A DNA stretch of 34,517 bases from an uncultured Clostridia bacterium (GTDB lineage: Bacteria; Bacillota; Clostridia; Christensenellales; Borkfalkiaceae). The notes below the pieces were generated by a model. The model saw only the letters and a list, made by a program, of their open reading frames with translations, did not search any database and was not told the origin of the DNA. The position numbers and the translations under genes are program-made. The stretch lies in assembly GCA_947626305.1 (NCBI GenBank), contig CANQRP010000007.1:1-34517 (forward strand), read 5' to 3'. Shown piece after piece: positions 1 to 6,008 of the stretch (position 1 is the stretch's first letter; each line of letters opens with the position of its first letter).

Positions 1-2655
1 GAGGATGAGGCGGAGGTCTTCGGGGGAATATTTGCACAGGAGGCTGATGAGCATGGCGTTGAGGCACACCGATTTGCCCGAGCCCGTGGCGCCCGCGACG
101 AGGATATGCTTCATCTTGGCGATGTTTCCGCACACGCTCCTGCCCTCGAGGTCCTTGCCGATGGTGAACATGAGGGCGCCCGGCTTATCCTGAAGGTATT
201 CTTCGGACTGCAAAATGGAGCGCACGCCGACGATGGCGGGTTTCTTGTTGGGGACTTCGATGGAGATGAAGCCCGATTCGTTGTTGGAATACATGTTCAC
301 GCCGTCGCGTGCATGCAGGCGCATGGCGACGTCTTCGTCCCGCTTGGTGACGGCGCCGACGGAGATGTTTTTGGGAATATCGATGTCGTACCGCGTAACG
401 GAGGGTCCCACGGCAACGCGCATGATCTCGGCGTCTACGCGGAAGCCCGCGAGCGTTTCGATGATGATCTGCGAATTTTGTTCGATCTCCTCTCTGCCCA
501 CCGTAACGCTCTCGTCGTACTTGTGGAAAATTTCGATGGAGGGGCGCACATAGGGGCGGTAGACGTGCCGCTCGGGCTTGGGCGCGGGCGTCGAAGGAAC
601 GGGGTGCGTCTCTTCCCGCTTGCCGCGGGAACTCCCGCGCACGGGGGGAGCGGGCTCGTCGAAGCTGTCGTCGTCAAAGAGGTCGGCGCGGGAGAGCCCC
701 TCCGCGGCGCGGCTGCCGAGCGCTTCGTCCTCCTCGGGTTCTCTGCCGAAGTCGCGGGAAGTATCCCGTCCGAAGTCGCGGGAAGTATCTCTGCCGAGGT
801 CGGGTTCTCTTCCGAAGTCGCGGGAAGTATCCCGTCCGAAATCGCGGGAATTATCTCTGCCGAGGTCGGGTTCTCTTCCGAAGTCGCGGGAAGTATCTCT
901 GCCGAGGTCGGGTTCTCTTCCGAAATCGCGGGAAGCGTCTCTTCCGAGGTCGCGGGAAGCGTCTCTTCCGAGGTCGGGTTCTCTTCCGAAGTCGCGGGAA
1001 GTATCCCGTCCGAAATCACGGGGCTCCCGATCGAAGTTGTAATCCGCCAATTTGCCGCGGTCCACGCTGAACAGGCTGCGCAGGTTGGCTCTGCCCTCAT
1101 CGCGGGGGGCGGGCGGCTCCTCGGAGACCGTCTGTTCGGCGCGGGGCTCGCTCTTGACGGGCTCGGGTTCCGGTTCGAGGCTCGCCCTCTTCAACGGCAC
1201 GTCCCGCGCGGGGGCGGGAGCGGGCAGATCGTCCACATTGGGCGCCGAGGAGAACTCCTCTTCGTAGGGCACGTCCTTTTCGTAAAAATTCGCGTCCGGG
1301 CGGATGTCCGGCGAGTCGGGCGCCTTGTAGGAGGGCAGGCGGGAATAATTGAGGTCCGCCGCCGACTGCGCCCGCTGTTCCACGATCTTGCGGGGCATTG
1401 CGGGGTGGGAAGCCTCCGCCTCCGCGGTGTACCGCTCGCCGTACCGCGGCGGTTCGTACTTGGGAGGATCGTACTTGGGAGGCTCGTACTTGGGCGTGCG
1501 GCTCTCCTCCCTCCCGAAGCTGACGGGGATCTCCCGCGGGGAGGTGCGGAGGGGCGAATCGTCCGGAAGGACGCTGCTCCTGCGCTTTTGGGTGTTGTAG
1601 CGGGAATCCTTGTTGAAAATGAGATTGTTGCGATAGCTGCTCGCGGGGTCGCCGTAGAGGATGTCCATCGAATCGATCGGCTTCGTCTGCTCCATGGGCG
1701 GAGTGTAGCGGTCGAAATCGTTCATGTAGGGAGCGTTGTAGGCGCCGCCCCTCCCCTGCGGCTGCTGCGGCTGCTCGTAGGGCTGCGCGGGCGTTTCGTA
1801 CCGCCCGTAAGGCTGCTGCGGCGCATAGGGCTGTTGTCCCCCATACGGCTGCTGTCCCCCATACGGTTGCTGCGGCTGATAGGGCTGCGCGGGCTGTTCA
1901 TATCCCCCGTAGGGCTGCTGTGACCCGTAAGGCTGTTGCGGCTGCTCGTAAGGCTGTTGCGGCTGCTCGTAGCGGCGGGGCTGCGGAGCGCTCCCCGTGG
2001 AGCGGGCGGGTGCGGGACGGGCGGGCGCGGGACGGGCGGGTGCCTCGTCCTCGGGGGTAGCCGTCTCCACGGCGCGACCCTTGGGCGCACGCGCTTTTTT
2101 CAGCATGTCTTTGAGGGGGGTCGTCCAAAGGAAGAAGAACACGGTAAGAGCGATGAGCAGGGAGAACAGCAGATAGGCGCCCACCTTGGAGAGGAGCGCC
2201 TGCGTGGGATAGACGAGGACGGCAAATACCACGCCGCCGCCCGTTGCCTGCGCGGCGGAAGTCTCCGCGGCGTTCCAGCAGCCGCCGAGGTATGCGCCGA
2301 AGCCCTTTCCGAGATACTCGCCGCTCGTAGCGAGATGGACGACGAGGAAGACGGCGACAAGCACCGCCATGGTGAGCAACACCCGCTTGCCCGCGAACAC
2401 CTTTTTCCCCGTGATCATGCGCAGGGAAAGCCCGATGCAGAAGAGCAGGAAGGGATAGAGAAAAAACCCGAAAACGCCCATGAGGAAGGCGGTGATGGCA
2501 ACGCCGATCTCTCCGAGCATGTAGGAACCGAGGATGGATATGAAGAGCAAGACGATGGAAAAGAGCAGCATCGTCATGCCGAATGTTTCTCTTGTGATGA
2601 CGGAGGACAGCTTTTCTTTCTGCCGATTGTCCTCTCCGCGACCGTAACCGTTCAA
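1..2655 (-). CDS. ftsK: DNA translocase FtsK/SpoIIIE, 3' part beyond the window edge
   Basis: Frame is open from TTG (2655) to base 1, so it is absent from the ORF track. N-terminus has about four TM segments (ETFGMTMLLFSIVLLFISILGSYMLGEIG...), then a long disordered linker, then the FtsK Walker A region KHILVAGATGSGKSVCLNAMLISLLCKYSPEDLRLIL at the left edge. AAGGAG ribosome-binding site upstream of the TTG. Confidence 0.93.
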   Translation of the reverse strand, partial: MNGYGRGEDNRQKEKLSSVITRETFGMTMLLFSIVLLFISILGSYMLGEIGVAITAFLMGVFGFFLYPFLLFCIGLSLRMITGKKVFAGKRVLLTMAVLVAVFLVVHLATSGEYLGKGFGAYLGGCWNAAETSAAQATGGGVVFAVLVYPTQALLSKVGAYLLFSLLIALTVFFFLWTTPLKDMLKKARAPKGRAVETATPEDEAPARPAPARPAPARSTGSAPQPRRYEQPQQPYEQPQQPYGSQQPYGGYEQPAQPYQPQQPYGGQQPYGGQQPYAPQQPYGRYETPAQPYEQPQQPQGRGGAYNAPYMNDFDRYTPPMEQTKPIDSMDILYGDPASSYRNNLIFNKDSRYNTQKRRSSVLPDDSPLRTSPREIPVSFGREESRTPKYEPPKYDPPKYEPPRYGERYTAEAEASHPAMPRKIVEQRAQSAADLNYSRLPSYKAPDSPDIRPDANFYEKDVPYEEEFSSAPNVDDLPAPAPARDVPLKRASLEPEPEPVKSEPRAEQTVSEEPPAPRDEGRANLRSLFSVDRGKLADYNFDREPRDFGRDTSRDFGREPDLGRDASRDLGRDASRDFGREPDLGRDTSRDFGREPDLGRDNSRDFGRDTSRDFGREPDLGRDTSRDFGRDTSRDFGREPEEDEALGSRAAEGLSRADLFDDDSFDEPAPPVRGSSRGKREETHPVPSTPAPKPERHVYRPYVRPSIEIFHKYDESVTVGREEIEQNSQIIIETLAGFRVDAEIMRVAVGPSVTRYDIDIPKNISVGAVTKRDEDVAMRLHARDGVNMYSNNESGFISIEVPNKKPAIVGVRSILQSEEYLQDKPGALMFTIGKDLEGRSVCGNIAKMKHILVAGATGSGKSVCLNAMLISLLCKYSPEDLRLIL
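755..1020 (-). repeat. In-frame tandem repeats in the FtsK linker (GRDTSRDF / GREPDL units)
   Basis: Translation reads RDFGRDTSRDFGREPDLGRDASRDLGRDASRDFGREPDLGRDTSRDFGREPDLGRDNSRDFGRDTSRDFGREPDLGRDTSRDFGRDTSRDFGREPE, a mix of 24-nt and 18-nt units. Confidence 0.9.
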
Positions 2656-2699
2656 AATCGTTCTCCTTGTCCCCCGTGGAGGGGGGTCTCTCACGGTAC

Positions 2700-3073: not shown

Positions 3074-3127
3074 CGGCTCCCGCGGAGCGGGTGGTGGGGT
3101 GCTTCAAAGTCATCCCGAAATGAAAAA

Positions 3128-3167
3128 AGCGGCGCCGCCGCGGACAAATGTCCGCGGCGGCGCCGCT
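3128..3167 (-). terminator. Rho-independent terminator of spo0A
   Basis: Perfect 19-bp GC-rich stem AGCGGCGCCGCCGCGGACA/TGTCCGCGGCGGCGCCGCT, followed on the minus strand by TTTTTT. Confidence 0.9.
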
Positions 3168-3180
3168 TCCGAAACCGTTG

Positions 3181-3942
3181 CTATGCCATGTTTTCGAGGA
3201 GAAGTTTATCCGCGACGAGCGCGATGAATTCGCTGTTCGTCGGTTTTTCCGTGCCAATGTAGACCCGCGCGCCGAAGATGGCGTTGACCGCGTCGATGCG
3301 CCCTCTGTTCCACGCCACTTCGATGGCATGGCGGATGGCGCGCTCCACCTTGCTCGCGGTGGTGCCGAACTTTTCGCCGATGACGGGATAGAGCCCCTTC
3401 GTGACGTTGTTGATGACGTGCGGGTCGGCGACCGCCATCTTGATGCCCTCGCGCAGATAGTTGTACCCCTTGATGTGGGGCGGGATGCCGATGGAGATGA
3501 AAATGCCCGAGATGCGCTCGTCGAGCGAGCCCGCGCGGCGGCGCTCCACGTTCTCGTGTACGACGGGGAGCTCCTCCCCCACCGCTTCCGTTACGCGGTC
3601 GGCAACGACGTCCGCCGAGACCGGCTTCATGAGATAGTAGCGTGCGCCCAGCGCAATGGCGCGGTTGATGATCTTGTCGTCCGAAAAGTTCCCCATTACG
3701 ATGAATTCCGTCTTCTTCCCCTCCCGTTTCACCGTCTCCATCACGTGGAAACCGTCCAGGTTTTTGAGCAGGAGACTGAGCACGATGACCGCGGGGTTGA
3801 AGCTCTTGATCAGCTCGATCGCTTCGGAGCCGTCCCCCGTGACGCCGCACACTTTCAACCCATCCCGCGAAGCGATCGCGGTCTTCAATTCCTCCGCAAA
3901 ACCCGGGTTGCTCTCAAGTATAAGCACGGAAAGTTGTTTCAT
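3181..3942 (-). CDS. spo0A: Spo0A-family response regulator with degenerate receiver domain
   Basis: C-terminal half matches Spo0A: IPPHIKGYNYLREGIKMAV...TASKVERAIRHAIEVAWNRGRIDAVNAIFG...KPTNSEFIALVADKL. ATG at 3942 preceded by AAGAGG. Receiver positions equivalent to B. subtilis D10/D11/D56 read E10/S11/S56. Confidence 0.93.
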   Translation of the reverse strand: MKQLSVLILESNPGFAEELKTAIASRDGLKVCGVTGDGSEAIELIKSFNPAVIVLSLLLKNLDGFHVMETVKREGKKTEFIVMGNFSDDKIINRAIALGARYYLMKPVSADVVADRVTEAVGEELPVVHENVERRRAGSLDERISGIFISIGIPPHIKGYNYLREGIKMAVADPHVINNVTKGLYPVIGEKFGTTASKVERAIRHAIEVAWNRGRIDAVNAIFGARVYIGTEKPTNSEFIALVADKLLLENMA

Positions 3943-3982
3943 AACATTACCTCTTGGCAGTTCGCCGATTGACAGTGAAATC

Positions 3983-4012
3983 ATTATACAATAATTCGGC
4001 TCGATTTGTAAA
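3983..4012 (-). promoter_or_regulatory. Putative promoter for spo0A
   Basis: Minus strand TTTACA-N18-TATAAT, about 40 nt upstream of the start codon. Confidence 0.5.
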
Positions 4013-4180
4013 GGCAATTTTTGTAAAAAATTAAAAGAATTTTTTACATAATTCTTCGAATTATGAAAATAAATGCCGAATCGCGTCGAAAATGAAAATA
4101 TTCTTTCATTTTTTCGCGAAAATTGTCTGTTTTTCGGGGTTTTGACGTTGAAACGAAAAAAATTTTTCAAAAAGTGCAAA

Positions 4181-4244: not shown

Positions 4245-6008
4245 TTATTTTGCGGTGGTCTTTTTGGGGGGGACGACGGCGATATGCACCTCGTCGAGCT
4301 GCTTTTGTTCCACGGGCGAGGGCGCGTTCATGAGAAGATCGCGCGCCTTGGCGTTCATGGGGAAGGCGATGACTTCGCGGATGTTCACCGTGTCGCAGAT
4401 GAGCATCACCATGCGGTCGACGCCGGGCGCAACGCCCGCGTGCGGGGGAGCGCCGTACTCGAAGGCGTTGTAGAGGGCGGGGAACTTGCTCACGACCGCC
4501 TCCCGGTCGAGCCCGACGAGGGAGAAGGCTTTGAGCATGATCTCGGGGTCGTGGTTGCGCACCGCGCCCGAGGAGAGCTCCACGCCGTTGCACACGATGT
4601 CGTACTGGTAAGCGAGAATTTCGAGCGGGTCCTTTTCGAACGCCTTCATCCCGCCCTGCGGCATGGAGAAGGGATTGTGGCAGAATTCGAGCTGCCCACT
4701 CTCCTCGCCGATCTCGTACATGGGGAAGTCGACGATCCAGCAGAAGCGGTACACGTTCTTTTCGAGAAGGTCGAGCCCCGTGCCGAGCATCGTCCTCAAA
4801 ATGCCCGCGCGCTTCTGCACGTCCTGCAATTTGTCCTCGGCGACGAGGGCGACGAACGCGTCCTTTTCCACGCCGAGAAGATTTTTCCATGCGCCGACGT
4901 TCTCCGCAACGAACTTCGAGATCCCGCCCGCGGGAACGCCGTTTTCATCGAGCTTGAACCAATACACGGAGCCGCCCTCCGTCTTGACCTTGAACTCTTC
5001 GCAGGTCTTGTCGATCCACTTCCGCGGCACGTTCACGCCCCGAACGCAGATCGCTTTGACGTGTTTCAACATGATGGGATCGAACCCGCAATTCACGCAA
5101 AGCTCCGTCACATCTTTGATGAGGAGGGGGTTGCGGAGGTCGGGCTTATCGGTACCGTAGTCTTCGAGCGCCGTGAGGTAGGGAATGCGGCGGAACGGGG
5201 GCTTGTCCGCGTCCCAACCGCTGTATTTCGCAAAGACGGGCGGAAGCACTCCTTCGAGCACTTCGAACACGTCCTCCTGCGTGGCGTACGCCATTTCGAT
5301 ATCGAGCTGGTAGAACTCCCCGGGGGAGCGGTCCGCACGGGCGTCTTCGTCGCGGAAGCAGGGCGCGATCTGGAAGTATCTGTCGAACCCCGAGCACATG
5401 AGGAGCTGCTTGTACTGCTGCGGCGCCTGCGGAAGGGCGTAAAATTCCCCGGGATAGAGGCGGGAGGGCACGATGTAGTCCCGTGCGCCCTCGGGGGAAG
5501 AGCTGGTGAGGATGGGGGTGGAAATTTCGTAAAATCCCCGCTCCGTCATGAGGCTTCTGAGGTCGGCGACGATCTTGGAGCGCAAGATGATCTTGTCCTT
5601 GACGGCGGGGTTGCGAAGGTCGAGGAAGCGGTAGCGAAGACGGGCGTCCTCCCCCGCCTCGGTGGAGTGGGAGACCTCGAAGGGCAGGGCGGGCACCGTT
5701 CTTCTGCCGAGCACTTCCACCCGTTCGGGGATGATCTCGATGAGCCCCGTGGGCAGTTTGTCGTTGGGGGCGGAGCGGAACACGACGACGCCCTCGACGG
5801 AGACGGTGGACTCGGTGGGGATCTCGCGGAGCAGGCTGAGGCAGGGTTCCTCCTGCGCAACGACCTGCGTCACGCCGTAAAAATCGCGGAGGACGGCAAA
5901 GAGCAGCCCTCCCTTGTCGCGCTTGCCGTCGAGCCAGCCGGAGAGTTTGACTTTTTTGCCCACGTCCTCTTTGCGCAGCTCGCCGCAAGTATGAGTTCTG
6001 TAATACAT
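4245..6008 (-). CDS. aspS: Aspartyl-tRNA synthetase
   Basis: MYYRTHTCGELRKEDVGKKVKLSGWLDGKRDKGGLLFAVLRDFYGVTQVV...; class II motifs RYRFLDLRNP, FYQLDIEMAYA, GAPPHAGVAPGVDRMVML. RBS GAGAAGG upstream. Confidence 0.96.
   Translation of the reverse strand: MYYRTHTCGELRKEDVGKKVKLSGWLDGKRDKGGLLFAVLRDFYGVTQVVAQEEPCLSLLREIPTESTVSVEGVVVFRSAPNDKLPTGLIEIIPERVEVLGRRTVPALPFEVSHSTEAGEDARLRYRFLDLRNPAVKDKIILRSKIVADLRSLMTERGFYEISTPILTSSSPEGARDYIVPSRLYPGEFYALPQAPQQYKQLLMCSGFDRYFQIAPCFRDEDARADRSPGEFYQLDIEMAYATQEDVFEVLEGVLPPVFAKYSGWDADKPPFRRIPYLTALEDYGTDKPDLRNPLLIKDVTELCVNCGFDPIMLKHVKAICVRGVNVPRKWIDKTCEEFKVKTEGGSVYWFKLDENGVPAGGISKFVAENVGAWKNLLGVEKDAFVALVAEDKLQDVQKRAGILRTMLGTGLDLLEKNVYRFCWIVDFPMYEIGEESGQLEFCHNPFSMPQGGMKAFEKDPLEILAYQYDIVCNGVELSSGAVRNHDPEIMLKAFSLVGLDREAVVSKFPALYNAFEYGAPPHAGVAPGVDRMVMLICDTVNIREVIAFPMNAKARDLLMNAPSPVEQKQLDEVHIAVVPPKKTTAK

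Follow-up and report, generated by a model that had tools for sequence, protein, structure and literature searches.

Described Spo0A proteins are activated at a conserved aspartate, and it is in this way that endospore formers start sporulation (reviewed in PMC11210211). The window analyzed here, a 34,517-nucleotide stretch of a contig from an uncultured Clostridia bacterium, encodes a Spo0A in which that aspartate is a serine, raising the questions of whether the protein is still a Spo0A and how it could be controlled. The gene is transcribed leftward and its 253-aa product matches the Spo0A equivalog model TIGR02875 over its full length (residues 3-252) with 243.2 bits, the cut-off being 200 bits; the Pfam scores are 60 bits for Response_reg and 133.5 bits for Spo0A_C (Table 1). 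AlphaFold2 predicts a complete (beta-alpha)5 receiver with block-mean pLDDT values of 90-96, plus a Spo0A effector, and Foldseek matches the effector to 1fc3 and 1lq1, and the receiver to the Spo0A receivers 5wq0 and 1qmp. Averaged over the genus group, identity to Bacillus subtilis Spo0A is 57% in the effector and 27% in the receiver. The 0A-box-reading helix, VERAIRH, is invariant across a 93-sequence alignment that has canonical families among its members. At the sequence level, a Spo0A effector with an unchanged 0A-box-reading helix has been kept, and we consider it likely, with some confidence, that the window protein acts as a functional DNA-binding regulator.

Residues 10, 11, 56, 84, and 106 of the window Spo0A (own numbering) are E, S, S, G, and K, and the receiver motifs in the translation read VIVLSLLLKNLDG, LILES, and VMGNF; because of a 2-residue gap after position 56, the Thr and Lys sites correspond to B. 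subtilis positions 86 and 108. The original prediction had described this pocket (S56, E10/S11, and G84, with K106 kept) alongside an effector closely matching Spo0A, and had pointed to an intact receiver in the nearby LytTR regulator. The translation confirms the pocket in every detail, the Spo0A_C score and effector identity given above agree with the second claim, and the LytTR pocket is indeed intact, reading IVEDS / IVFMDIMLPG / IFVTNM / LDYIVKP. The protein thus has the equivalog-model match, the Spo0A_C domain, and the conserved helix of a Spo0A, and lacks Asp56, the acidic pair, and the Thr/Ser; because of S56, E10-S11, and G84, its descent and architecture are those of a Spo0A but its activation chemistry is not. 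Loss of the acceptor, disruption of the acidic pair, and replacement of Thr by Gly together make the usual phosphorylation chemistry very unlikely, and it is highly probable that there is no phosphorylation at residue 56.

Table 1. Features of the spo0A locus, in window coordinates.
Feature	Positions	Strand	Basis
ftsK/spoIIIE-type DNA translocase, downstream neighbor (in L033 too), runs off the window	1..2694	-	by eye
G+C-rich strong hairpin then T run just 3' of spo0A, probable intrinsic terminator	3123..3166	-	by eye
spo0A reading frame (253 aa), start codon ATG 3942-3940	3181..3942	-	translation and profile matches
Spo0A_C DNA-binding effector domain, residues 144-247	3202..3513	-	Pfam and Foldseek
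Linker, residues 119-143; predicted confidence low at residues 123-137	3514..3588	-	alignment and AlphaFold2
Receiver domain (residues 1-118), (beta-alpha)5 fold predicted to be intact	3589..3942	-	Pfam, AlphaFold2, and Foldseek
Codon 106, conserved pocket Lys kept	3625..3627	-	residue numbering and orthologue alignment
Codon 84, Gly replacing conserved Thr/Ser	3691..3693	-	translation and orthologue alignment
Codon 56, AGT (Ser); phosphoacceptor Asp in canonical Spo0A	3775..3777	-	translation and orthologue alignment
Codons 10-11, Glu-Ser replacing acidic pair	3910..3915	-	translation and residue numbering
Ribosome-binding-site-like AAGAGG	3950..3955	-	by eye
Sigma-A-type promoter of spo0A, TTTACA-N18-TATAAT, unique in window	3983..4012	-	motif match
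Operator array abutting -35, conserved; 0A-like units, ~21-bp pitch	4018..4073	-	motif and alignment
Array units: TTTTTTACAAAA 4030-4019; TTATGTAAAAAA 4051-4040; TTTTCATAA then TTCGAA	within 4018..4073	-	
TTCGAC, reverse of 0A-box core GTCGAA, conserved position near -77 from -35	4085..4090	-	motif
aspS, aspartyl-tRNA synthetase, upstream neighbor of spo0A (in L033 too)	4245..6008	-	neighborhood comparison

The data throughout are from metagenome-assembled genomes (MAGs); the close orthologues come from gut MAGs, some of them named Candidatus Gallimonas, the family is probably Borkfalkiaceae (GTDB; order Christensenellales), and the altered pocket is conserved in this lineage. In 82 genus-group orthologues, a set that takes in a few near relatives (L110 groups with genus g39, and L107 lies outside the main group), E10, N12, D63-G64, G84, and K106 are present in 100%, S56 in 95%, and S11 in 91%. 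Ser56 is found in 78/82 sequences and is always specified by AGY codons (50 AGC, 28 AGT); the exceptions are Asp (GAT) in L034, Asn in L057 and in one L088 copy, and Gly in L110. The L088 contig carries two copies of spo0A (133-912 and 5001-5750), which differ at residue 56 (Ser in one, Asn in the other). L034 (2520-3278) is the nearest neighbor of the window protein on the tree, and the rest of its altered pocket is unchanged; its Asp56 is possibly a natural regain or an assembly error, and its presence within an otherwise altered pocket suggests that Asp56 can be regained.

Loss of the aspartate extends across the family, where residue 56 in 130 sequences from 18 genera is S (86), G (15), D (13), E (9), N (6), or A (1), such that Asp56 is absent in 117/130. 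Thirteen genera are without Asp56 (L034 aside), g41 is mixed, and g44, g48, g50, and g54 keep it. The family forms one clade in a tree of 155 sequences (SH-aLRT 99); among order relatives outside this clade, 22/24 have Asp56 and 2/24 have Glu, and 30/30 sequences of f32, a canonical family within the order, have the full pocket, with an acid at position 10, Asp11, Asp56, the Lys, and Ser where the Thr would be. This is the reverse of what a lone decayed copy among canonical relatives would look like: the altered state is common to the genus and the family, and the canonical family is intact. The distribution of Asp and non-Asp at residue 56 needs at least 8 changes on the tree, a number that is soft as this is a quick tree with long branches, and a link between the loss of Asp and that of Thr/Ser, the acidic pair, or Pro60 was dropped, as four independent contrasts give no statistical power. 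Glu56 occurs in genera g45, g51, g52, and g55 (L164, L165, L148, L151, L122, L137, and L138-L140) and in the order loci L012 and L019, and is a possible built-in phosphomimic.

The five pocket columns (10, 11, 56, 84, and 106) have a mean conservation of 97%, versus 73% over all receiver columns, and 81 of 20,000 random 5-column sets were equally conserved. Because the altered columns are among the most conserved in the genus, the pocket appears to be kept in a new form and is not drifting. Such conservation would suit a ligand- or partner-gated pseudo-receiver, with the re-set pocket binding a metabolite, ion, or protein that gates dimerization, and other inputs have been proposed for some aspartate-less receivers (PMC4395418). 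However, sister genera differ at residue 56 (G, N, E, or A), which disfavors one shared ligand, and a candidate ligand or partner gene was not identified; we regard gating of this kind as unlikely.

Receivers with a changed Asp are known to be phosphorylated at an alternative site in vitro, and Spo0A could likewise still be phosphorylated elsewhere, either on Ser56 by a Ser/Thr kinase or on a neighboring residue by a histidine kinase. The 95% conservation of Ser56 and the retention of K106 and E10 favor this explanation, but sister genera have Gly, Ala, Asn, and Glu at residue 56, the second acid is lost, and the usual coupling Thr/Ser is Gly in 93/130 family members, all of which make it quite improbable.

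A third explanation is that the receiver is losing function and that Spo0A is kept for its DNA-binding domain only, as could be read from the variability of residue 56 across the family, the lack of detectable alpha/beta small acid-soluble proteins (SASPs; see below), and the rates of substitution, with median dN/dS values of 0.25 in the receiver, 0.34 in the linker, and 0.09 in the effector. The receiver also outpaces the effector in the canonical family (f32; 11 usable pairs), however, and we dropped dN/dS as a sign of relaxation. At effector identities of 0.88-0.95, receiver identity is 64-66% among Ser56 proteins versus 48-50% in canonical f32, a relative-rate argument and not a formal test, as the two sets were not sampled to equal depth. 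Because it is more conserved at matched effector divergence, the Ser56 receiver is at least as constrained as the canonical one and is under purifying selection, not decayed; as the altered pocket also shows almost no variation within the genus and the predicted fold is intact, we find drift very hard to sustain. The receiver lacks Asp56, has a changed acidic pair and Thr, and retains its predicted fold under strong constraint. An error in sequencing or assembly, or misbinning of the contig, is a negligible prospect even though the window derives from a single fragmented MAG (74% complete), as about 80 other assemblies share the altered state, the aspS and ftsK-type neighbors recur in L033, and the 78/82 orthologues with Ser56 exclude a sequencing error at codon 56.

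A canonical Spo0A elsewhere in the genome could supply the missing function, but none was found in the source MAG (1.54 Mb in 127 contigs, 74% complete), which has a single Spo0A_C match, or seen among 60 other, incomplete genomes of the genus. Spo0A_C is present in 53 of these 60, with one match each except in G019, which has a second match that is weak and divergent; spo0A is thus nearly always single-copy in the genus. Genomes of family f32 encode many short receiver-less Spo0A_C proteins each, possibly of phage or mobile-element origin. The source genome has 14 receiver domains including that of Spo0A, and 12 of the other 13 have both an Asp acceptor and a Ser/Thr coupling site; only Spo0A has Ser at the acceptor site. 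An OmpR-like receiver (G000:C9:12583-12888; L215) has Glu rather than Asp at the acceptor position (VVSELRLPD) and is a second aspartate-less receiver in this genome. No stand-alone Spo0F-like receiver was found among the open frames of the incomplete source MAG. Contigs C1 and C4 of the same small genome (G000; L203, L204, L207-L210, and L212) encode several long histidine kinases of the hybrid type, each carrying two receivers.

The region upstream of spo0A suggests how a Spo0A of this type could be controlled. A sigma-A-type promoter lies upstream of spo0A in 83/86 genus-group loci, the window included (0.65 in shuffled sequences), with a spacing of 17 in 79 of them; the same promoter type is present at 20/48 other family spo0A genes, 2/24 order relatives, and 0/30 f32 loci. 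A sigma-H-type spo0A promoter was rejected, with matches not above chance in any set. In the genus-group loci, conservation extends ~65 bases upstream of -35 and not beyond, with 0A-like units (TTGTNNAA or TTNNACAA) at -15, -36, and -57 (2.05 per promoter versus 0.15 shuffled), and TTYGAC cores at -47, -67/-68, and -77, in steps of ~10 bp. There are 41 exact TTGTCRAA sequences in the 86 upstream regions versus 2.5 in shuffled ones; the shuffles for both promoter and 0A boxes preserve base composition alone. Compared with the genus consensus, the array in this window is more degenerate, and it contains no exact TTGTCRAA.

Spo0A recognizes TGTCGAA as the core 0A box and makes specific contacts there with G2, C4, and G5 (PMC3485338). 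Because the C4-G5 pair is absent from the TTTTGTACAAAA units, we only infer that these are degenerate 0A boxes, and a regulator other than Spo0A could bind them. As an exact palindrome, TTTTGTACAAAA is found in 4/13 genomes searched, always upstream of spo0A, and we ruled out a role as a global regulon operator because the exact 12-mer is found only at this position in the 13 genomes. Binding of Spo0A to its own promoter has precedent (PMC3485338, PMC12090719), and the spo0A upstream region of Clostridioides difficile gave the tightest Spo0A binding among the C. difficile DNAs tested (PMC3485338). With 0A boxes upstream of spo0A in 13/30 canonical relatives too, Spo0A autoregulation is not itself new, and because the promoter array is also present in g41 members with Asp56, the array and the loss of Asp are not tightly linked. 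The 0A boxes at B. subtilis spo0A act mainly repressively (PMC12090719), so the sign of the feedback here could be either activation or repression.

Phosphorylation of canonical Spo0A drives dimerization and lifts inhibition of the effector (PMC3485338), and a constitutively active Spo0A allele can support sporulation given a second condition (PMC4689505). We propose that the receiver described here is an aspartate-less pseudo-receiver, such that the usual Asp phosphorylation could not switch Spo0A on, and that the re-set pocket (E10, N12, S56, G84, and K106) would fix the receiver in one state, most likely a dimerization-competent one. Input would then move to the amount of Spo0A made. Because the near-consensus sigma-A promoter has an array of 0A and 0A-like boxes upstream of -35, cooperative binding of Spo0A to its own promoter is probable, and the outcome would be a concentration-thresholded, autoregulated switch with the box array as its feedback element. 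On balance, we lean slightly toward reading the protein as an aspartate-less, phosphorylation-independent Spo0A whose activity would be set chiefly by its own abundance, by way of cooperative autoregulation. That abundance with autoregulation is the main mode of control is, as a claim on its own, tentative, and we would put it a little short of an even chance. The original prediction of a pseudo-receiver that works without phosphorelay input is supported, and level control, one of the modes it offered, draws circumstantial support from the promoter. More speculatively, the family as a whole may have uncoupled the master regulator of sporulation from two-component phosphorylation, with a concentration-thresholded, self-regulated switch in its place and several solutions at residue 56 (Ser, Gly, Asn, and Glu); this is a fair distance from established, and we hold it as a possibility.

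The sporulation program that Spo0A would govern is represented in the source genome by SpoIVA, SpoIIGA, and sigma-F/G-like factors. SpoIVA was found in 57/61 genus members and SpoIIGA in 54/57 family genomes tested, and the sigma-F model has matches in 56/56 genomes (best E-value < 1e-70 in 54), the source genome being included in each set; there are mostly two strong matches per genome, as expected for sigma-F plus sigma-G, and none reaches the strict cut-off. The alpha/beta SASP model (PF00269) has no match in 56/56 family genomes, the source genome included, with B. subtilis positive. The program may accordingly not end in normal spores, and the family may make unusual spores or put the sporulation program to another use. 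Exact 0A boxes before spoIIGA number 6 in 39 family loci versus 0.6 shuffled, with none in the genus-group loci read, so that Spo0A may or may not control spoIIGA directly in the genus. Just ahead of the spoIIGA promoter, loci of the genus (e.g. L193, L195, and L247-L250) have a conserved hairpin like GGCATATTCCGACGGGATATGCC with a T run, which probably terminates transcription of the gene before it. Detection of spo0A has served as an initial indicator of sporulation potential in gut MAGs (PMC11536998); spo0A in a gut MAG does not imply a phosphorelay-driven, or even complete, sporulation pathway.

We found no report of an aspartate-less or pseudo-receiver Spo0A in the open-licence literature; aspartate-less receivers are already known, and it is a clade-wide aspartate-less Spo0A that is without report in the literature searched. 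If our reading is correct, conservation of an aspartate-less Spo0A over ~13 genera would be a natural exception to the rule of Asp phosphorylation, and would mean that the best-studied phosphorelay in development can be dispensed with and its output kept. With D, S, G, N, and E all represented at residue 56, the family also offers a natural series of receivers in which the real role of the phosphate can be examined.

The window protein resembles the Spo0A proteins of B. subtilis and C. difficile (TIGR02875) in domain order, fold, ~57% effector identity, recognition helix, and 0A boxes at its own promoter, but differs from described Spo0A in being without the phosphoacceptor Asp, in its changed acidic pair and Thr/Ser, and in having a sigma-A promoter abutted by a box array. 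It is also like the aspartate-less receivers (ALRs; RitR, ChxR, HP1043, and FrzS), which have the Asp replaced and the fold kept, and usually keep the first acid and Lys; Ser replaces Asp in 15% of ALRs, and some are active without phosphate (PMC4395418). The window Spo0A likewise has a receiver fold with the Asp replaced and the first acid and Lys in place (E10 and K106, both 100% in the genus group). The Thr/Ser is retained by most ALRs, whereas the window Spo0A has Gly there, and Spo0A is not named as an ALR in the parts of the ALR survey consulted (PMC4395418). Phage Spo0A_C proteins similarly have the Spo0A DNA-binding domain uncoupled from phosphorelay input, but they are without a receiver, whereas that of the window Spo0A is complete and conserved (PMC10294663). 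In the direct-phosphorylation Spo0 pathways of clostridia, as here, the input side of Spo0A has been remodeled; in those pathways the kinases and intermediates differ and phosphorylation of Spo0A is still the endpoint, whereas in the lineage described here the acceptor itself is gone (PMC6136694).
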